From the NCBI GenBank assembly GCA_002887195.1, contig PJAB01002082.1, positions 1 to 10,599 on the forward strand: 10,599 bases of DNA. Direction: 5' to 3'. Position numbers and translations under genes: made by a program. The first letter of the stretch is position 1. Every line of letters begins with the position of its first letter. The notes under the pieces are model-generated. The model was not told the origin of the DNA. It saw only the letters and a list, made by a program, of their open reading frames with translations, and did no database searches. Shown in pieces: positions 22 to 10,538 of the stretch. The DNA comes from Chrysochromulina parva. Taxonomy: Eukaryota; Haptophyta; Prymnesiales; Chrysochromulinaceae.

Positions 22-3000
22 CTGATGAAGGAGGCAATCAGAGGCTATCAGAGGCAATCAGAGGACGCTCGGATCCCTATAGAGCGACTTGATGCGTGCC
101 TGATGAAGGAGGCAATCAGAACCGCTCAGAGGCAATCGGAGAGGTGATCAGAGGCAATCGGAGAGGTGATCAGAGGCAATCAGAGGTCATCCGAAGCGAT
201 CTAAGGCAACGCGGATGAGCGATTGAATGCATGCATCAAATGCGGTCCGGATGAGCGATTGAATGCATGCATCAAATGCAGTCCGGATGAGCGATTGAAT
301 GCATGCCTCCGGGATGGACACGATCTCAAAAAGGCGGCTGGCTGATGAGGAGGTCAATCAGCAGGCACTCATAGGCGCAATCAGACGAGAGGATACCTCG
401 GGTGTGGACGCGATCTCAAAAGGCGAGCGCCCGTGGTCCATCGGCAACGGTTCTTTGAATCTGATCGAGGGGAGATATGTCACGTCGGAGAGCGACTCGG
501 ACCACGGGATGGCTTTCTTCGGAGGGACCTGATGAGGGGGGCAATTAGAGGTCATCAGAGGCCATCCGAGGTCATCCGAGGTCATCCGAGGCTATCAGAC
601 GCACGAAGACATGGCGTCCCTCAACGACGTGGTGCGCGGCGCTGGGATAGTGCGACGTGAAAAGAGGCCCTCCTTCGCCCTCGTCGTCTTCGTCGTACTG
701 CACCTCGTGCAACCGACGCGACAAAGCGCCGTGTTGGGCGCCGATGCCGAAGAGCTCTCGCACGCTGCCCGATACGGCGCTCACGGATCGGAGGGAGAGG
801 GTTCGTCCGCATGCAATTGACGAAGCCGGAGCTGCTGCCGAGTCAGTGGCGCCCAGCATGGCGCCCGGCATGGCGGCCGGGTGCTTGAATGAGGCGCCGT
901 ACTGGGCTCTTGCATGCGAGGCGGAGGGCGCCCCCAAGTGCTTGAAGGACTGCGTGATCGCGCTTCCGGCCTCGCTGATCCAGTGGCCGAGCATCGAAGC
1001 GAGAGGTGAGGGAGGGCACTCGGGTGCGTCGTTGAGTGCGCTCTCCGGGGGCGAGGGCGGCACCGAGGGGGGCGATGGCCTCTGACGAAACCGGCCCCCA
1101 AAGGCGGGGGTGTGACGAAACCGGCCCCCAAAGGCGGGGTTGTGACGAAACCGGGACCAAGGCGATTCCGGCGCCGTACCGGGCGCGCACGGCGCCGTAC
1201 CGGGCGCGACCGGCGCGATCGGCTCGGCTGCGGCGAAGAGACGAAACCCTGCTTGGAGCCAGGTCAACTTACGCACCGCACTTTGGAAGCGCAATCCCCG
1301 GATGGCGGAGACAGCTTCGCTGAACCGACTGCCTCTGTCCGAGGCCCGGAGACCGTTGCCGGTCGACCTGTCGGCCACGATGTCGCTGGCGATCGTTTCG
1401 TGTGGCGCCGCGCGACGCTTCCGGGCCTTGACCAGGAACTTTCCGCGAAGCTCGTCGGGGGAGGGGAGTCGGAAGGGGGGAAGGCCGGTGTAGAGTACGG
1501 GGGGGGCGAGGCGATCACCGCATTCCTCGAGGAGGATGTCGACGAGCACCTCCTGCGTTACGTTTGAGCGACGCCATCAGAGGCCATCAGAGGCAATCAA
1601 TGATAGGTATATAGATGTAACAGCACCTCTTGTGTGCGTCTCAATCTCGCAATCTCACCTGCTGCTCGGTCGAGCAATGCATCTCGAGCGAGAGTGTGAT
1701 CGGGAACGGCGATGTGACGAAACCCTCCTCGACGATCGCCCGGATGCAATCACGGAACGCAATCGGCTTGATGAGGGTGTTTCCGTGGGTGACACAGGGC
1801 TCGCCATCCGCACCGTCAAAGCAGTCTAGCTCGACGCAGCGGCACCCCATGCGCAAGAGGCGCCGGTACCTGTCCAACAGGGTGGGGCGTTGTGGTGAGC
1901 ACGTGCATGCAAGGCAGGCCATCAGCAGCTGGCGCCGGTACCTGTCCGTTGCGGCGCAATCAGGTGCAATCAGGTGCACTTAGGTGCAATCAGGTGCACA
2001 CGGGTGCTATCAGAGAGGTCCTCGTACATGTCGGATGAGGTCGGAGATCTCAATCTCAATCTCAATCTCAATCTCAATCTCGTACATGTCGGTTGAGGCG
2101 CGCGAGGTGAGTTGATTGCCCTCGAGGTACGAGTTATGCGACGAGTTGCAATAGTAGTCCGAGAGCGGCAGCGTCATATCATCGACGACCGAGGAGCGGG
2201 TACGGGGGTCGAAGGCGTCATTATGAGGCGAGAAGAGGGCCGCACGAAACTGAGTTTCGTCCAGCCATTCGTCTGAAAAGGCGTTGCCGCTTCCACAACT
2301 GCTTCCACAACTGCTTCCACAACTGCTTCCACAACTGCTTCCACAACTGCTTCCACAACTGCTTCCACAACTGTGAACGTTGACGCCGTGGAAGGGCACC
2401 TGCCGGTAAACTTGCCGCCACTCCGCCTCAAGCTCCGCCTCCGTCGCGTCTTGCATGCCCTGCTCATCGCGCAGAAACCGAAGGAAGCCGGCCTTGGGCA
2501 TCACCTTCGTGCCCGACACGACGCCTCGATGGCCGTTACTGCCCACTTCGAACGCCGGCACGGCGCTCGCATACCTGTGGACGTGCGGACGCCGTGGTGG
2601 GCACTCGCATGCAGCCCGCGCGGTGCGCGCCGGCACGGCGCGATCTGATCGCATACCGATCAAGCTCAATATCAATCTCAATCTCAATCGCATACCGATC
2701 GAAGAGGTCGGAGATCGCAATCTCCTTGGAGCGCAGCTCGCGGTCCAGAATGTCGAGCACCTGCTGCGCGTTGACGCGGCCTCCATTGGGAGGCGCCGTG
2801 GTGAGCACCTTCTGCGCGTTGAACCCCGCCACGTCACCAGTGCCGGCCTGACGACCATCGGGTACAGCGCCCATCACGGCGCCACATGTACGCGCCGCGT
2901 TGAGCTCCGCGAGCCTCGCCACGCGAGATCGCTCGGCGCGCTCGCATGCATCGGCGCATGCATTCTGAGCCCACTCGAGCGTCTGGATGATGTTGAGGCG

Positions 3001-6000
3001 TACGAAGCACTCCAACAGCTCCCTGCGGTGGAGGAAGGAGGCGCCCGAGGGCAATCTCAGGGTAAATCTCTGGGCAATCTCGAGGTAAATCTCGGGGGCA
3101 ATCTCGGTGGTAATCTCAACTCTTAATCTCGGTTCCATCTCGAGGGAAATCTAAGTGGCAATCTAGGGGACAATCTCGGCGCACCTGGCATTGAGCAGCC
3201 CGTCGCTCTTGGCATCGGACGCTCGAAAGCAAGCGAGCACGAGCGCCACGAGCTCCGGCGGGAAAGAGTGCCGCTGCTGATGCACCGAGCGCACCATCGC
3301 CTGCAGTCCATCCAGACGCGGTCGTCGGTCGCTACAAAGGAGGCAATCTCGGGGACAATCTCGGCGCACCATCGCCTGCAGTCCGGTCATCCAGACGCGG
3401 TAGTCGGTCGCTTCATTGGGGGCAATCTCGGGGACAATCTCGGCGCACCTGCAGACCGGTCATCCAGACGCGGTAGTCGGTCGCTTCATTGGGGGCAATC
3501 TCGGGGACAATCTCGGCGCACCTGCAGACCGGTCATCCAGACGCGGTAGTCGGTCGCTTCATTGGGCACGATGTCGAGCGCCCGTTGACCCTCCGCGACG
3601 CCATATGAGTTCAACATGAGCGTGATGCAAGGCGTGTTGAAGTCCGGGTGGCGAGAAGCATGCACGGAGAGGATCTCGTGCACGAGCACCTGTGAATGGG
3701 AAGGAAGGCGAAGCGCTGGGGTGAGCACTTGCATGCACGGAGAGGATCTCGTGCACGAGCACCTGATGAGGGAGGCAATCAGAGGTCATCATCAGAGGTC
3801 ATCATCAGAGGTCATCGAGTGATCATCAAGTGGTATCTCGTGCACGAGCACCGCTCTCCCGCGCCATGACCAACGCAGAGGTCGGAGATCGCAATCTCAA
3901 TCTCAATCTCAATCTCAATCTCACCGCTCTCCCGCGCCATGACCAACGAAGCAGCTCGCCGTGAGACGAGAGCTGGAGGAAGGCTGGCTTGGGCCGTTGA
4001 CCTGTGGGGAAGGCGATGCGCCGTGGTGAGCACTTGCATGCAGCTGGAGGACGGCTGGCTTGGGCCGTTGACGAAACCCGACGAGCGGAGGACGCGTGGC
4101 AATCAGTGGCCATCAAGTGATCCTCCTCGGCCATCAGTGGTCATCATCAGAGGTCATCATCGGTCATCATCAGAGGTCATCATCGGAGGTCATCATCGAA
4201 GGTCATCATCGAAGGTCATCGAATCATCATCGAAGGTCATCGAAGGAGATCAAGTGACCATCAAGTGGTCATCACCTCGCTTGGAGAGCAGCAGATAAGT
4301 TCCCGTCGCCATTTGACGAATCGCGCGCGCTTCGGCATCGGTGAGCGCCGTGGTGAGCGTCGCCATTTGACGAATCGCGCGCGCTTCGGCGTCGGTGAGC
4401 GCCGTGGTGAGCGCCGCATGCAGATGGTCGGGTAGCTCACGCCGCGGCGCCGCGCCGTCAGCGCCGCTCGACGACGACGGCGCACCGAGGAGCTGCTCGC
4501 GCTCGCGACGACGCGGACCTGTGGGGAAGCGAGCAAGGCGCCGTGGTGAGCACTCCTTCCTCGCACGCAGCCCGCACCCCATCCGCTGAAGAGGTTGGAG
4601 CGTCGTGGTGAGCACCCCGCCGTGGTGAGCACCCCGCCGTGGTGAGCACCCCGCCCGCTGAAGAGGTTGGGGCGTGAGCGTACCTCGGCGCTGTCGTGAG
4701 CGCAGTCGGGTCTCTTGGCGGTGCTCGTACCGGTAAGTGTAACGAATGTATACGGCAGAGCCGACGAGGAGGAGCACACGCGCCACATTTGCGGGGATGC
4801 CCGCGATCAACGCGAAGCGCACGTCGGGTTCGGGCAGCACCGCCTGCCCAACGCCCGCGACGGCGACGACCAGGGCGCTGATCGAGAGGGCCAAATGCGT
4901 CAGACCTGATGAGGGAGATCATCATAGGCCATCAGAGGCAGGGCCCAATGCGTCAGACCGAGGAGCCCAAAGAAGAAGAGAGTTGATGAGGGAGATCATC
5001 AGAGGCAATCAGAGGCAATCAGAGGCAATCAGAGGGTTCGTCAGACCGAGGAGCCCAAAGAAGAAAAGAGTTGATGAGGGAGATCATCAGAGGCAATCAG
5101 AGGCCATCAGAGGCAATCAGAGGGTTCGTCAGACCGAGGAGCCCAAAGAAGAAAAGAGTCCTCTTATGGATCTTGCGAGATGCAATCCCGGCGAGGATCG
5201 TCGTCATCAACGAGAGGCTGATGGTGAGCACCGCGAGGACGACCCAAGCGGGCTGCCAGCCGAGACGGACCGCCTGCGGAAGAGCGCTCACGACAGCGCC
5301 ATGCCCGAGCAAAGGGGGAAAGGGGGGGACGCCGTGGTGAGCGCCGTGGTGAGCGCATGCAAGCAATCGCGTACTCTCGGGTGCAATCTCGGTGTTAATC
5401 TCGGTGTACCTGTATGATCTGAGAGAGAGAGGGACGACCTCGCAATCTCGGGTGCAATCTCGGTGGTAATCTCGGCGCACCTGTATGGTCCACCAGAGCA
5501 GGAAGGCGTGCCAGATCACCTGATGAGGGACGCAATCAGAGGTCATCAGAGGAGCCATCAGACGCAATCAGGAAGGCGTGCCAGATCACCGAGATGAAAA
5601 AGTCGATCCCAGCGAAGCCCTGGTAGTAAGTCTTACGCAGCGTCTGGCGCCGCTCCATCATGTCGAAGGTTTTCGTCTTCACGTACCTGTGGGGAAGGCG
5701 AGGCGCCGTGGTGAGCACTTGCATGCCGCTCCATCATGTCGAAGGTTTTCGTCTTCACGTACCTGTGGGGAAGGCGAGGCGCCGTGGTGAGCACTTGCAA
5801 TGCCGCACCATCATGTCGAACTCGCGGGGATTGCACTCTCGGCGCACCGGTCGGGGGCAATCTCGGGGGCAATCTCGGAGGCAATCTCGCGGGCACTCGC
5901 GGGGATTGAACTCTCGGCGCACCGGTAGCCCCACGCGCGACGCGCGACGCACTCGAGCACGAGGAAGAGCATGAGGCACGTGAACGCGAACGCGGGCGCC

Positions 6001-8146
6001 GAGGCGGTGGGCTGGTATCCCAGCCTGTACTGCGTGTATGCCGCGCACTGCGTCGCGATCGAGCTCTGGGTGCAGCAATAGCCCGCCGGCACGTACCTGT
6101 GGGGAAGGCGAGGCGCCGTGGTGAGCACTTGCATGCCGCTCCATCAAGTCTGGGTGCAGCAATAGCCCGCGGGCGCCGTCTCGGGCAGCTCAGCGGGCGC
6201 CGTCTCGGGCAGCTCAGCGGGCGCCGTCTCGGGCTGGGTGCAGCAATAGCCCGCCGGCACGTACACCGAGGCAGCGCTGCTATGGACGTTCGTCTGGTTG
6301 AGCGCCGAGGCGGCGGCGGCGGCGGCAGCGGCGGCGGCGGCGGCGGCATCTTCGGCCGCCTCGCATGCTGCCAAATCGGACCTGATGAGGGAGATCATCA
6401 GAGGCAATCAGAGGCAATCAAAGGCAATAAAAGGGTTCGTCAGGCCAAATCGGACCTGATGAGGGAGATCATCAGAGGCAATCAGAGGCAATCAAATGCA
6501 ATCAAAGGGTTCGTCAGGCCAAATCGGACCTGATGAGGGAGATCATCAGAGGCCATCATAGGCAATCTAAGGCAATCAGAGGCGATCAGAGGCAAACAAA
6601 GGGTTCGTCAGGCCAAATCGGACATGAACCGAAACCACGGGATGCGATTCGAATCGTCGGACATCGAGAGCGCTGTCAGGCCGCGGTCGACGATGATGAA
6701 GACGAGCACACAGAGCGTCGCCGCGGCGGTATCCATCTGGAACGGAGATTCGGTCCAGATTCCGGAGAGGAAGAAGAAGAGGAAGAGGACCAAGATTAAG
6801 AGCTCGATCACGCCTAGGAACACACATGCGGACGGGCTGGGGCGTGCGGCCGCGTGCTGCCCGCTGACGAACAAGGTCGAGGACTCAACGATGACCAGCA
6901 CCATCACGCCTAGGGCCACGAGCAATTGCATCTTCACAGCGAGCGGCAGGTTGCTGCGAGAGTCGATCATCAGTGGTCATCAGAGGCCATCAGTGGTCAT
7001 CAGAAGCAATCAGTGGCCATCAGTGCCATCAGAGTCATCAGTGGCAATCAGAAGTCATCAGAGTCGATCGACGATGGTCATCAGTGGCAATCAGAGCTCA
7101 TCAGTGGCCATTCGATCTGGCGCGAGCCGAGAGTGATGAGAGCGCCAATCAGTGATCAGAGGGCACCTGGGAGCCAATCATTTAAATGAGACCTCTCCGG
7201 TGTGAATAGAGACCTCTAAGGTGTGAATAGAGACCTCCCACGCACCTGAGCTGCTGCCCAAACGACATATGACTCGCGAGTGCCGTCTTCGCGAAGAGGA
7301 AGTGTTGGTGGTCGTGGATGGTTTCCTCCTCCACCTGATGAGGGAGGCAATCAGAGGTCATCATCAGAGGTCATCATCAGAGGTCATCAAGTGAGGTCAT
7401 GGATGGTTTCCTCCTCCACCTTCTTCTTCTTGACCTGGACCGCGAGCTGCAGCCACTGGTTGAGCACGTCGGCCGAGGAGACGAGCGCCGCGGGCGGTGG
7501 CGGCCACGGAGCGCCGTCCTGGCGCAGCTCGGGTGGCGCCTGCTGCAGCATCGGGCGCATCTCAATCTCGATACGATCTCGGGCGTGCGTCACGGTGCAG
7601 CGCGAGACGACGCCCGAGACGACGCCCGCACCCGCTGGCGCCTCGTGCTCCAAATCAGGCAACTGATCCACGTCATCCCACTCGCCGTGGTGCGACCTCC
7701 CTCCCTCGAGCAGATCGACGAGCGAGTGCGCCTGCAGCTCCGAGAGCTTGGCGATGGACTCGGCCACGGCGGGCGTGCAAGGCACGCGATGCCGGTGCAC
7801 GGAATGGATCTCGACGAGGATCTCGTCGGGACGTCCGTCTTCAAGTCCAGTCTTGTCGTCCCACCTCGGTGTCGTGAGAGTCGACTCCGCCCCGCCGCTA
7901 CTCCGGGCCAGCAACTTGCTCGACACCATCGAGAGCAGGCCCCGTTGGCGCTCTTTTGTAGCGTTCCGCGTGTAGCGCTCCTGACGCTCCGGAGATGACT
8001 CACCTCTTGTATTCGGGGCGCCGGCGAACGAGTCTCGGCCCGACGCCCTCCGAGAGGGATTGCTCGGCCGGGTCCGCATTCGGAGTTGGAGTTTCGTCTT
8101 CGAAAATGACGAAGGAATTCGTCTCGGCAAATCCTCTACGGGCCAT
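1..8146 (-). CDS. Multi-pass membrane protein fused to PI-specific phospholipase C (spliced, 3' end outside window)
   Basis: Predicted to hydrolyse PIP2 to IP3 and diacylglycerol at a membrane in which it is itself anchored. Proposed exons, 5' to 3' on the minus strand: 8146-8004, 7918-7420, 7334-7246, 6953-6624, 6381-6265, 6096-5923, 5686-5590, 5519-5481, 5273-5135, 4905-4684, 4518-4276, 4001-3925, 3689-3522, 3300-3185, 3022-2809, 2760-2696, 2574-2086, 1869-1659, 1552-611, 528-397, 21-1. They sum to 4,527 bases (1,509 codons) and every junction keeps phase. Order: N-terminal tail (1-243), eight hydrophobic helices (about 252-596), basic linker, PH (about 686-785), EF-hand (loop 808-819), X domain (about 1048-1190), linker, start of Y (about 1459 on). 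Nearly all acceptors are CAG|G. The X/Y assignment is very secure. The fusion is well supported by the open frame 4894-4276. Exon 1 and its intron are the weakest part. Two separate genes is the alternative. Confidence 0.8.
22..396 (-). other. Intron 20: stacked repeats with copies of the exon junction
   Basis: Donor GAG|GTATCC, acceptor CATCAG|GCACG. It holds the B-type repeat (plus strand ggcaatcagagg), three 36-base units (213-308), an exon-junction copy at about 287-335, and one extra copy of the exon 21 start (79-99). No gene seen. Confidence 0.6.
213..308. repeat. 36-base tandem repeat, about 2.7 copies
   Basis: Units start at 213, 249 and 285 (ggatgagcgattgaatgcat...). On the minus strand each unit is a decayed copy of the exon 21 start (GGCAYGCAT..AATCGCTC) and stays open (CIQSLIRTAFDA). 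Confidence 0.85.
397..528 (-). other. Exon 20: start of Y domain of the PI-PLC
   Basis: Reads VPPKKAIPWSESLSDVTYLP, then SIRFKEP and SPFEIASTPE, matching the first strands of PLC Y domains (pattern ..LSDLV.Y....F..F). Preceded by CTCATCAG at 536-529 and ended by GAG|GTATCC at 397/396. Phase 0 at both ends. The Arg/Tyr pair that contacts substrate later in Y lies beyond the window. Confidence 0.85.
529..610 (-). other. Intron 19, B-type
   Basis: CAT|GTCTTCG to CCCTCATCAG|GTCCC, 82 bases, phase 0, filled with GATGACCTCGGATGACC repeats. Confidence 0.7.
1084..1152. repeat. 30-base tandem repeat in coding linker
   Basis: gacgaaaccggcccccaaag begins at 1084 and 1114 (third start at 1144). The period of 30 keeps frame and gives a 10-residue protein repeat. 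Confidence 0.85.
1170..1212. repeat. 21-base tandem repeat in coding linker
   Basis: gcgccgtaccgggcgcg starts at 1171 and 1192. The in-frame 7-residue unit is APGTAPC-like. Confidence 0.8.
1553..1658 (-). other. Intron 18
   Basis: CAGCAG|GTGAGATTG to AACGCAG|GAGG, 106 bases, phase 0. Joins STEQQ to EVLVDILLEE as in other PLCs. AT-rich middle (about 1600-1625) and a short B-type stretch. No exon-edge copy seen. Confidence 0.85.
1659..2250 (-). other. Exons 17-18: catalytic X domain of the PI-PLC
   Basis: Reads LSDYYCNSSHNSYLEGNQLT at the end of exon 17, then YRRLLRMGCRCVELDCFDG in exon 18, through ITLSLEMHCSTEQQ. Equivalents of the catalytic and calcium-binding residues known from mammalian PLC-delta1 are present: H1057, N1058, E1087, D1089, H1102 and E1136. 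Only the usual Asn after the last Glu is changed (LSLEM). Splicing AT|G at 2086/1869 restores the family pattern ..DMYRRLL..GCRCVELD exactly. An active enzyme is expected. Confidence 0.93.
1870..2085 (-). other. Intron 17: two stacked units
   Basis: Donor GACAT|GTACGAG. The outer unit has five GATTGA repeats, the word ATCTCCGACCTC and a second copy of GACATGTACGAG, and ends GGACAG at 1942. The inner unit 1941-1870 begins GTACCGGCGCC (same as the next exon) and ends in a decayed family A block with GTGCTCACCAC and GGACAG. Confidence 0.85.
2290..2373. repeat. 12-base tandem repeat, seven copies, coding (S-C-G-S)n
   Basis: cttccacaactg starts at 2290 and repeats every 12 bases through 2373. In the coding frame it gives seven Ser-Cys-Gly-Ser units between the EF-hand lobe and the X domain. 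The frame is open on both sides and I found no phase-compatible pair of splice sites to remove it. Confidence 0.9.
2575..2695 (-). other. Intron 16
   Basis: GATCG|GTATGCGATTG to GTCCACAG|GTATGCGAG, phase 2. Three copies of GTATGCGA (two in the intron, one opening exon 17). Contains GATTGA repeats and a family A block (2575-2612). Confidence 0.85.
2761..2808 (-). other. Intron 15: 48-base, in-frame
   Basis: CAGAAG|GTGCTCACCACGG to GCGCAGCAG|GTGCTCG. The flanks TCAACGCGCAG.AGGTGCTC are repeated on both sides. Length is divisible by three with no stop, so retention would insert 16 residues. Either reading is possible. Confidence 0.6.
3023..3184 (-). other. Intron 14, family C
   Basis: GCCAG|GTGCGCCGAGATTG to CCACCGCAG|GGAG, phase 2. 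Body of about twelve degenerate GAGATTNCC words. Removing it restores the EF-hand loop. Confidence 0.85.
3301..3521 (-). other. Intron 13, family C with exon-end copies
   Basis: CTGCAG|GTGCGCCGAGATTG to GACTGCAG|GCGATGG, phase 0. Contains three more or less decayed copies of the exon 13 end, each closing on CTGCAG. Confidence 0.85.
3385..3603. repeat. 73-base tandem unit of exon end plus intron body
   Basis: ggtcatccagacgcggtagt starts at 3385, 3458 and 3531. Each unit joins the last coding bases of exon 13 (through WMTGLQ) to a GTGCGCCGAGATTG intron segment. 73 is not a multiple of three, so the copies are not protein repeats. Confidence 0.9.
3690..3924 (-). other. Intron 12: stacked D, B and A units
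   Basis: GAGAGCG|GTGAGATTG to ATTCACAG|GTGCTCG, phase 0. The start of exon 13 is present three times (from 3851, 3762 and 3689). The inner CATCAG at 3765-3763 is a further possible acceptor. The last unit copies 32 bases of exon 13. Confidence 0.85.
4002..4275 (-). other. Intron 11: B-type repeats plus family A unit
   Basis: AAGCGAG|GTGATGACC to CCCCACAG|GTCAACGG, phase 1. A copy of the exon 12 start (31 bases, one mismatch) lies at 4042-4072, followed by the 40-base family A block 4002-4041. Confidence 0.85.
4276..4518 (-). other. Exon 11: linker with 54-base in-frame duplication, leading into PH domain
   Basis: The exon starts right after CCCCACAG (4519) and reads GPRRREREQLLGAPSSSSG, then a helix segment, then MATGTYLLLSKR, which is the first strand of a PH domain. 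An 18-codon unit is repeated in tandem (4305-4358 and 4359-4412; LTDAEARAIRQMAT in each copy), with the introner-like word CTCACCACGGCG between copies. Both copies stay in frame. The exon links the last membrane helix to the lipase half without any stop, even across the unspliced upstream intron. Confidence 0.75.
4519..4683 (-). other. Intron 10: in-frame, family A
   Basis: CGAG|GTACGCTCACG to TTCCCCACAG|GTCCG, 165 bases, phase 1. Holds several GTGCTCACCACGG words. Open in the coding frame, so retention would insert 55 residues. Confidence 0.75.
4906..5134 (-). other. Intron 9, B-type, with two copies of the exon 9 end
   Basis: CTCCTCG|GTCTGACG to CTCATCAG|GTCTGACG, phase 1. Two further copies of about 34 bases spanning the exon 9 end (TTCTTCTTTGGGCTCC) sit near 5041-5075 and 4957-4988. 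Confidence 0.85.
5274..5480 (-). other. Intron 8, family C with A words
   Basis: ATACAG|GTGCGCCGAGATT to CTTCCGCAG|GCGG, phase 0. The exon-end word ATACAGGT recurs inside. Two CTCACCACGGCG words lie near 5325-5350. Confidence 0.8.
5520..5589 (-). other. Intron 7, B-type, with 21-base exon copy
   Basis: TCG|GTGATCTGG to CTCATCAG|GTGATCTGG, 70 bases, phase 0. The first 21 intron bases equal the first 21 bases of exon 8. Confidence 0.9.
5687..5726 (-). mobile_element. Family A introner-like block (type copy)
   Basis: A 40-base block from GCATGCAAGTGCTC to CCTTCCCCACAG carrying its own 3' splice site. Close copies on this strand: 6097-6136, 5763-5803, 4002-4041. Decayed copies: 4519-4553, 3690-3736, 2575-2612, 1870-1910. 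One copy lies on the plus strand in the other gene (9434-9478). Too short to encode anything, so any transposition would be non-autonomous. Confidence 0.7.
5687..5922 (-). other. Intron 6: family C head, two family A units
   Basis: TACCG|GTGCGCCGAGA to CCCCACAG|GTACGTG, phase 2. The last unit (5762-5687, 76 bases) is 38 bases of exon 7 plus the family A tail. A second acceptor stands at 5765-5763. Confidence 0.9.
6097..6264 (-). other. Intron 5, family A, 31-base exon copy
   Basis: TCGGT|GTACGTG to CCCCACAG|GTACGTG, phase 2. The first 31 intron bases (6234-6264) equal the first 31 of exon 6 (6066-6096). Includes a 24-base tandem repeat. Confidence 0.9.
6171..6235. repeat. 24-base tandem repeat inside intron 5
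   Basis: gggcgccgtctcgggcagct begins at 6171 and 6195, with a shortened third copy from 6219. Confidence 0.85.
6382..6623 (-). other. Intron 4: three stacked B-type units
   Basis: CAT|GTCCGATTTGGC to CTCATCAG|GTCCGATTTGGC, phase 2. Units 6623-6530, 6529-6456 and 6455-6382 each begin with the same 12 bases that open exon 5 and each end CATCAG, so each could be an intron by itself. Confidence 0.9.
6456..6529 (-). mobile_element. Family B introner-like unit (type copy)
   Basis: Repeats of CCTCTGATTGCC and CTCTGATGATC closing on CCCTCATCAG, the 3' splice site. Other closing sites on this strand end at 22, 100, 529, 3763, 4906, 5520, 6382, 6530 and 7335. Confidence 0.65.
6954..7245 (-). other. 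Intron 3, B-type
   Basis: CTCAG|GTGCGTGG to CTCGCAG|CAACC, phase 2, 292 bases. The 5' part holds two GAGGTCTCTATTCACACC units, the middle is B-type. Only acceptor in the window not followed by G. No exon copy seen. Confidence 0.75.
7335..7419 (-). other. Intron 2, B-type, 25-base exon copy
   Basis: AAGAAG|GTGGAGG to CTCATCAG|GTGGAGG, 85 bases, phase 0. The first 25 bases match the start of exon 3 (7310-7334) with one mismatch. Confidence 0.9.
7919..8003 (-). other. Intron 1 (tentative)
   Basis: Strong donor GAG|GTGAGT at 8003. The only nearby acceptor that keeps the exon 2 frame is TCGAG before 7918. No repeat family present. An unspliced start at 8130 is the alternative. Confidence 0.4.
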
Positions 8147-8252
8147 CGTTACAGAGGACTTGCGCACGGCGGTTCATCATTCACACCTCCTTCCTCACAG
8201 TGCTCGGCCGGGTTCACGCAGGGGCAGACTGCACCCCGGCTGGCTGGACGCC
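8147..8252. promoter_or_regulatory. Shared divergent 5' region
   Basis: Only 106 bases separate the two proposed start codons, so the promoters or 5' leaders must overlap or extend into the opposite gene. No TATA-like box recognised. CTTCCTCACAG at 8190-8200 could be a 5'-leader splice acceptor for the plus gene. Confidence 0.4.
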
Positions 8253-10538
8253 ATGCCCACCATCGGCGACGCTGGCCAGCACTCGATCTTCGACGACCCG
8301 TCCGTTGAGCGGCAGGCGCGGTACGTCTCCGCCGTGCTCGACGTGGCAAAGCAGCACGACGCGCTCAAGCAAAAGCGCTTGAAGCTCGAGAGCAACTATG
8401 CCGCGGAGCTCGAGCGACGCGCGTGGCTGCCATTGGGGGCGGGCGGTCGCGCGCTTGCCGGCCCGATGCCGGACTTGCAGCCGCACGCGTGGCTGCCCAC
8501 CGAGCTCAGCGAGCTGCACCGATGGATCCGTCAGTCGGCACGCGAGCTGAGCGAGGCGGACGCGTGCGCTCCGGTGGTGCCGAGCGGCACCACGGACGCG
8601 GAGCTCGCGCTCGAGCACGCGGCGGCGCAGACGCGCTGCCAGCTGGCGTACTCCTCGTCCGAGGCCGGCGGCGCGCGGCTCGCTCCCGTCTGCCTGGCGC
8701 TGCTCACCGAGCACGAGCGCCGCTGCCGTGCGGCCGACGCGCTGCTCGAGGAGTTGCCGCCGCTGCTGCTGCGCCTCTCCGTCGTACCGAGCGTCGTCCC
8801 GAGCGGCGGCGGCGGCGGCGGCGGCTCGAGGCGCACGGACTCGGAGCTTGCGCGGCTCGCGCAGCTGCCGCCGGCGCTCTCGGCCTCGTGGCTTATGCTC
8901 CCGGGCGCGCCGACAGCGAAGCTGCGCGAGGAGCTGATCTCGGGCGGCGAGATTGGCGGCCGTGCGAGCACTCGCAGCTCGAACCTCCGATTGACGAACC
9001 TCCGATTGGGCCCGGATTGACGAACCTCCGATTGGGCCAGATTGGTCCTGATTGGGCCAGATGGAGCCCGATTGGCGCTGCGGATTGACGAAGCTCTGAT
9101 TGGGCCTGATTGGCGCTGCGGAGTGCCGCTGCGGAGTGCCGTCGATGATCGACCTCAGAGATGCCTCCCTCCTTCGGGAGGTCTCAAGAGTGTCCCAATC
9201 TCGCCCCAATCTCGCCCCAATCTCGCCCCAATCTCGCCCCAATCTCGCCCCAATCTCGCGCTGCAGGTGCGTACCGGCAGCTCGCGCGCACGCTGCTGAC
9301 GAAACTGGCCACGTGGCGACGCGAGCAGAGCGCGTGGCTGGTGTGCCCGCCACGGCGCCCTGTGCCAGCCACGGGGCCCGCCGCGCCCGCCACGCCGCCC
9401 GCCGCCCCGTCTGCGAAGCTCGGCCACCCCCTCGCATGCAAGCGCTCACCACGGCGCCTCCGTCCGCCCTCCCCACAGGTGTGCCCGCCGCCCCGCCTGC
9501 GGGCGGTCGAGCTCGAGCGCACCTCGCCTCGCCTGCGCGCGGCCCTCGGGGCAGCGGCCGCGGCGGCGGCGGCCATGTGCCAGGCGGTGCGCTGGCGTGA
9601 GGCACAGAAGGGACTGCCGCCGAGCGAGCTACAAATCCCACCGCCGCCGCCACCACCACCACCGCCGCGCCCACCGCCACCGCCAGCAGCAGCGGCGGCG
9701 GCGGAGGTGGACGCGGCGGAGGCGGCCGCAGCCGTGGCGGCGGCGGCGGCGGCCGAGGAGGCGGCGGCGGCCGAAGTTGCGGCGGCCGCAGCGGCGGCCG
9801 CGGAGGCGGAGGCGACTGAAGCGGCGGCGGCGGCCGAGGCGGCCGCGGCGGCTGATGCGGCGGCGGCGGCTGAGGCGGCGGCGGCGGCTGAGGCGGCGTC
9901 CGCCAAGGTCGAGAGGTCATCAGCGGCCCCATCAGCGGGCTCATCAGCGGGCTCATTAGCCTGGGAGGCAGCCGCCGCGTCCGTCGAGAGCAGCGGAGGC
10001 GGAGGCGGGTACATGGGCGTCGTGGGATCTTTTCGACGACCGTCCTCCGCCGGCATCGCCACGTCACCAGTGCCGGGGCGCTCCTCATTAACGAACCCCG
10101 CCACGTCACCAGTGGGCAGTCCGCCTCCGCGGAGGCCGAGCTCTCCGGCGCCGACGGTTGCCAAATTAGGCAGCTCTCCTCATTCGACAACCGCAGGGGG
10201 ATTCTTCCGCCCTTCCTCTGCCAGCCACGCCACACGCACAGCCGCCTCCCCCACCAGGCCCGCCTCCCCCCCCCGGCAGCACCGGCAGGTTGCACCCCCC
10301 GCCGCCGCCGCCATCAGCAGCAGCACTCAGACGCACTCAGATGCAATCAGATGCGCATCTGAGCCGCAGGTCACAGCGCCCGACACAGCGCCCAGCTCAC
10401 GGCCTTCTACAGCCGCAGCCCCGCATACCGCAGCGACGGCGGCGACAAAGACGCACACGACGGCGCCTCCGCTCACGACGGCGCCTTCGCGCGCGCCTGC
10501 GACCCATTTATGGGAAGACCCATCGCCGCACGCCGTCC

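Follow-up and report, generated by a model that had tools for sequence, protein, structure and literature searches.

The window, i.e., the whole stretch of DNA analyzed here, is the entire contig C2082 (10,599 bp) of Chrysochromulina parva, one of 2199 contigs of a 45.07-Mb genome. With 58 matches to light-harvesting proteins, the genome is that of a photosynthetic alga; out of four such frames compared with PDB sequences, one shows haptophyte-looking entries among its top matches. Its minus strand yields a single open frame of 1531 aa from 19 spliced exons separated by 18 introns, with exon boundaries placed manually by GT–AG sites and the reading frame. The protein consists, in this order, of an N-terminus assigned to the cytosol, eight hydrophobic helices, a basic linker, a PH domain, an EF-like region, the X domain of PI-PLC, and the start of the Y domain, within which the frame leaves the contig. 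The exons, in the direction of transcription, are as follows.

7420..8079, minus strand: exon 1, cytosolic N-terminal region (aa 1–220), start codon uncertain
7246..7334, minus strand: exon 2, end of the N-terminal region (aa 221–249)
6624..6953, minus strand: exon 3, helices 1–3
6265..6381, minus strand: exon 4, poly-Ala and the sequon NQT in the outer loop that joins helix 3 to helix 4
5923..6096, minus strand: exon 5, Cys-rich end of the outer loop (CCT..QCAAYT) and helix 4
5590..5686, minus strand: exon 6, basic loop on the inner side, then the first part of helix 5
5481..5519, minus strand: exon 7, last part of helix 5 (WHAFLLWWT)
5135..5273, minus strand: exon 8, helix 6 and the first part of helix 7
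4684..4905, minus strand: exon 9, most of helix 7, helix 8, start of the basic linker
4276..4518, minus strand: exon 10, linker (holding a 54-bp duplication) and first PH strand
3925..4001, minus strand: exon 11, PH
3522..3689, minus strand: exon 12, PH
3185..3300, minus strand: exon 13, end of PH and first EF-like loop (DAKSDGLLNARE)
2696..3022, minus strand: exon 14, EF-like region
2086..2574, minus strand: exon 15, EF-like region including the SCGS repeats, then the beginning of X with the equivalents of H311 and N312
1659..1869, minus strand: exon 16, X domain, equivalents of E341, D343, H356, and E390
611..1552, minus strand: exon 17, end of X (K438; Arg at K440) and X–Y linker
397..528, minus strand: exon 18, start of the Y domain, equivalent of S522
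79..99, minus strand: exon 19, Y domain, continued

The same 21 bases occur at positions 79–99 and again at 21–1, the contig end, so that either copy could be the start of exon 19. On the plus strand, a 352-aa stop-to-stop open frame without a Pfam match (7962–9020), divergent from the PLC gene, may represent a neighboring gene.

Three protein searches, with about 8000 candidates scored in each, yielded six relatives (P0001–P0006), all of them predicted proteins. P0001 (1421 aa), P0002 (1290 aa), and P0003 (1520 aa) each carry helices, PH, EF-like region, X, Y, and a C2-like end in one predicted chain, P0002 and P0003 both beginning at helix 3; P0004 (545 aa) starts at helix 2, crosses PH, and reaches the EF-like region. 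P0005 and P0006, which both include N-terminal sequence and stop at helix 6 and helix 4, respectively, are uninformative on the fusion. P0004 and P0005 finish in unrelated tails, as expected of plain unspliced frames. P0001 and P0002, 56% identical to each other, share 45–46% identity with the window protein over residues 80–800. Among aligned residues, the window protein and P0001 are identical at 156/328 positions in the helices, 64/99 in PH, and 98/146 in X; for P0003, the count in the helices is 83/260.

The relatives also bear on the exon boundaries. As judged by eye from the alignment, 14 out of 18 exon junctions continue in line with the relatives on either side, and the other four (at aa 398, 622, 932, and 1480) fall within variable loops. 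The C-terminal part of exon 1 can be aligned to P0001, P0005, and P0006, and P0006 has a similar stretch further upstream (by eye). Two repeats set the window copy apart: a 54-bp in-frame duplication in the linker before PH (4304–4417), single-copy in the relatives holding the linker, and about seven in-frame 12-bp units (SCGS) in the EF-like region (2289–2373), absent from P0001–P0003. Six out of 18 introns, including 7419–7335, 6623–6382, 6264–6097, and 5589–5520, open with a run of 8–31 bases that is found again, without mismatch, where the following exon begins, and none of 306 mismatched pairs used as a control reaches eight bases; moreover, a 40-base sequence from an intron end occurs 23 times in the genome (up to three mismatches), including four times in the window (control, zero). 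This pattern suggests introner-like intron gain in the PLC gene, for which part of an earlier study offers a comparison case (PMC9860276).

The preliminary description of this locus claimed that eight helices are fused to a PI-PLC in one chain, and this is borne out both by the single 1531-aa frame and by all four relatives that read past helix 8 (P0001–P0004, predicted proteins). Its search for the same domain order in related organisms succeeded for P0001–P0003 and, up to the EF-like region, for P0004; hence the situation that would have spoken against the fusion, with the two halves always encoded by separate genes, is not what the four fused relatives, predicted proteins as they are, present. 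The joint of helix 8 and PH, described earlier as open whether spliced or not, indeed lies in a 222-aa open frame (4918–4250) that starts within helix 7, spans helices 7–8, the linker, and the first PH strand, and stays open with the 165-bp intron 4683–4519 either removed or kept. A methionine immediately precedes PH (4310–4312, minus strand) in five out of five sequences reaching that point, and it could be either an internal start for a shorter soluble form or a structural residue only.

By its sequence, the lipase half is a PLC-delta-like PH–EF–X–Y enzyme with catalytic residues, and hydrolysis of PIP2 is predicted. The X domain of the window protein matches the Pfam profile PI-PLC-X with E = 3.6e-49, and no other Pfam family is matched at E up to 1. 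The residues that we take to be catalytic include equivalents of H311, N312, E341, D343, H356, E390, and K438, all retained in the X domain, and K440, replaced by Arg; overall, eight out of nine of those visible are kept in the window copy, and 11 out of 11 in each of P0001, P0002, and P0003. In these three relatives the Y domain exceeds the Pfam cut-off over almost the full length of the profile, the window holding about 51 aa of it, and the C2-like end stays below the cut-off; the window contig stops before the C2 position. Since K440 is replaced and the end of Y and the C2 domain are not found, the lipase activity of the window copy is only putative, and the wording “complete-looking,” applied earlier to its PI-PLC, has to be withdrawn for the window because the contig stops within Y. 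The PH domain, of the PLC type and recognized at the level of the fold, precedes the EF-like region, whose EF loops are mostly degenerate, and the X–Y linker is long. The alignment of P0001 with rat PLC-delta1 covers X and Y, and C2 is matched weakly, at 12.5 bits.

The membrane module is predicted to comprise eight helices with both ends in the cytosol. Lys and Arg make up 125 out of 573 residues (0.218 per residue) in the segments placed inside and 25 out of 593 (0.042 per residue) in those placed outside, and the loop between helices 3 and 4 has at least one sequon and exactly four cysteines in all seven sequences. The basic residues inside, together with the sequon and the four cysteines of this loop, put the lipase on the cytosolic side, in agreement with the earlier assignment from the positive-inside rule and an outside sequon, although acidic residues outnumber basic ones in the 35 residues preceding helix 1, and the loop between helices 2 and 3 lacks Lys and Arg in all six sequences holding it. 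Several ionizable residues are invariant within the predicted helices 3, 4, 5, and 7, namely, D339 and E447 (7/7 sequences), D485 and H493 (6/6), and H552 (5/5, leaving out the unrelated tail of P0005); invariant tryptophans also lie within helices, among the five to seven sequences holding each. The conserved Asp, Glu, and His and the cysteines of the outer loop speak against a module that serves as an anchor only; they do not choose between a receptor and a channel.

Neither Pfam nor PDB sequences assign the module to a sensor, channel, or transporter family, and its sequences produce no GPCR match in Pfam. Tetraspanins were considered as well: with E values up to 5 allowed, PF00335 matches none of the six sequences of the module (only three of these hold all of helices 1–4), and a genome search with this profile lists three other contigs, one of them over the cut-off, the window contig not being listed. 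Structure models of the module are of low to middling confidence. Of the one-chain receptor or channel envisaged in the preliminary description, the single chain with the lipase stands, and the receptor or channel role finds no family, PDB, or convincing fold match; the structure search suggested there for the helix region was indecisive, with matches of helices 1–6 at noise level and none convincing. Comparison of the module with a 7TM-like frame linked to a PIPK from the same genome gave an hhalign probability of 0.3%, a comparison of low power with a single sequence on one side.

The PIPK-linked frame just mentioned lies at 1021–4502 of locus L031 (contig C543), where five hydrophobic segments with a sub-cut-off 7tm_2 match are followed by a separate PIP5K frame, likely a GPCR-PIPK. 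PIP5K matches occur on six contigs, and G-alpha has three matches over the cut-off, two of them nearly full length, so that G-protein input to the lipase is possible. An IP3-receptor-type protein is encoded by one 3763-aa open frame (L029, contig C366, 6–9569, minus strand), of which a 3188-aa stretch, stopping before the end of the frame and so short of the pore part, contains Ins145_P3_rec, MIR, RIH, and RIH_assoc. There is also a second PI-PLC, encoded in a frame of 1430 aa that contains X and Y (L004, contig C535, 1871–6163), for which no membrane module is seen in the 1.9 kb upstream held by the contig. With an IP3-receptor-type protein, PIP5K, G-alpha, and PI-PLCs, the genome has the parts for both making and answering IP3.

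We infer a sensor role for the module and consider the chances about even that the protein is a single-chain membrane sensor–lipase. In such a protein, the module would detect a chemical or physical stimulus via the Cys-rich outer loop that joins helix 3 to helix 4 and via the conserved Asp, Glu, and His within its helices; helix 8, continuing into PH, would then bring the autoinhibited barrel onto the membrane in which the protein itself resides, and the fused lipase, recruited without a G protein or a kinase, would cleave PIP2 to IP3 and DAG, the former acting on the IP3-receptor-like protein of the same genome. The broader proposal, a new algal class of integral-membrane PI-PLC switched by its own eight-helix receptor or channel and providing a G-protein-free calcium route from stimulus to IP3 receptor, is put forward tentatively, at a little short of an even chance.

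Three other explanations were weighed against it. Suppose that the eight helices do no more than anchor the lipase or direct it to a site, e.g., the plasma membrane or a vesicle, with calcium and lipids setting its activity as in soluble PLC-delta: the PLC-delta-like domain order with its PH domain, and a module matching no sensor family in Pfam or among PDB sequences, would be natural, but a single helix would suffice for this purpose, the EF loops are mostly degenerate, and neither the invariant Asp, Glu, His, and Trp in the helices (in the five to seven sequences holding them) nor an outer loop with four cysteines in seven out of seven would be called for. We regard this as unlikely, yet the strongest of the three. 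Less probable still is a module that works as an ion channel or transporter and has the lipase as its regulator, the two being coupled by ion flow or local loss of PIP2; the invariant ionizable residues in helices 3, 4, 5, and 7 would fit, but no channel or transporter family is recognized by Pfam or PDB sequence, and the fold matches of helices 1–6 do not rise above noise.

The remaining explanation, that two adjacent genes were merged by the gene model or that translation of the lipase begins at an internal start ahead of PH, seems very improbable. The junction frame is open spliced or unspliced, four relatives form one predicted chain across it, and the unrelated tails of P0004 and P0005 look like plain unspliced frames; these observations outweigh the methionine directly before PH in all five sequences, the C535 paralog with its module-free 1.9 kb upstream, and the consideration that P0001–P0003, known as protein sequences, could themselves be spliced models. 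If the sensor–lipase were conserved, an integral-membrane PI-PLC would constitute a distinct route from stimulus to IP3 in algae and would extend the catalog of receptor–enzyme fusions to the IP3-producing step; it would also offer for testing an orphan membrane module with conserved charges inside its helices.

Known eukaryotic PI-PLCs are soluble or peripheral and are recruited by other proteins. Rat PLC-delta1 (PDB:1DJG) shares with the algal protein the PH–EF–X–Y order, the catalytic residues, and, in the relatives, the C2-like end, whereas eight membrane helices before PH and a long X–Y linker are found in the algal protein. A membrane sensor or channel joined in one chain to an enzyme acting on lipids or nucleotides is also seen in the voltage-sensing phosphatase Ci-VSP and in channel-enzymes of the TRPM2 type; however, enzyme and helix count differ there, and the algal module has no basic S4-like helix (by eye). 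Among the matches listed, no description of a PLC–membrane fusion or a PLC bigram surfaced in the open-access literature, in keeping with the earlier remark that the class is not known as described. The main text of a choanoflagellate GPCR catalog, as far as covered here, does not mention phospholipase or PLC (PMC12716839), and a study tying PI-PLC of Emiliania huxleyi to calcification has no mention of transmembrane in the parts considered (PMC7563939). A close parallel is provided by GPCR-bigrams, which, including GPCR-PIPK, occur in oomycetes, amoebae, and haptophytes, and combine 7TM with PIPK, INPP, AC, PDE, or TKL, AP being the type with an N-terminal protease; in the portions of these sources used here, PLC is absent among the types, and oomycetes are said to lack PLC of the stereotypical form (PMC6033456, PMC5784254). 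Like GPCR-bigrams, the algal protein carries a cytosolic catalytic domain at the C-terminal end of the membrane-spanning chain. In view of these literature results, we file it under receptor–enzyme fusions and, going by the lipase half, under PI-PLCs. As far as those portions go, in GPCR-PIPK, as in the algal protein, a membrane module of several helices precedes a cytosolic enzyme acting on phosphoinositides within a single chain, whereas the GPCR-bigrams have seven helices and no PLC, and the algal protein has eight helices with the N-terminus inside.
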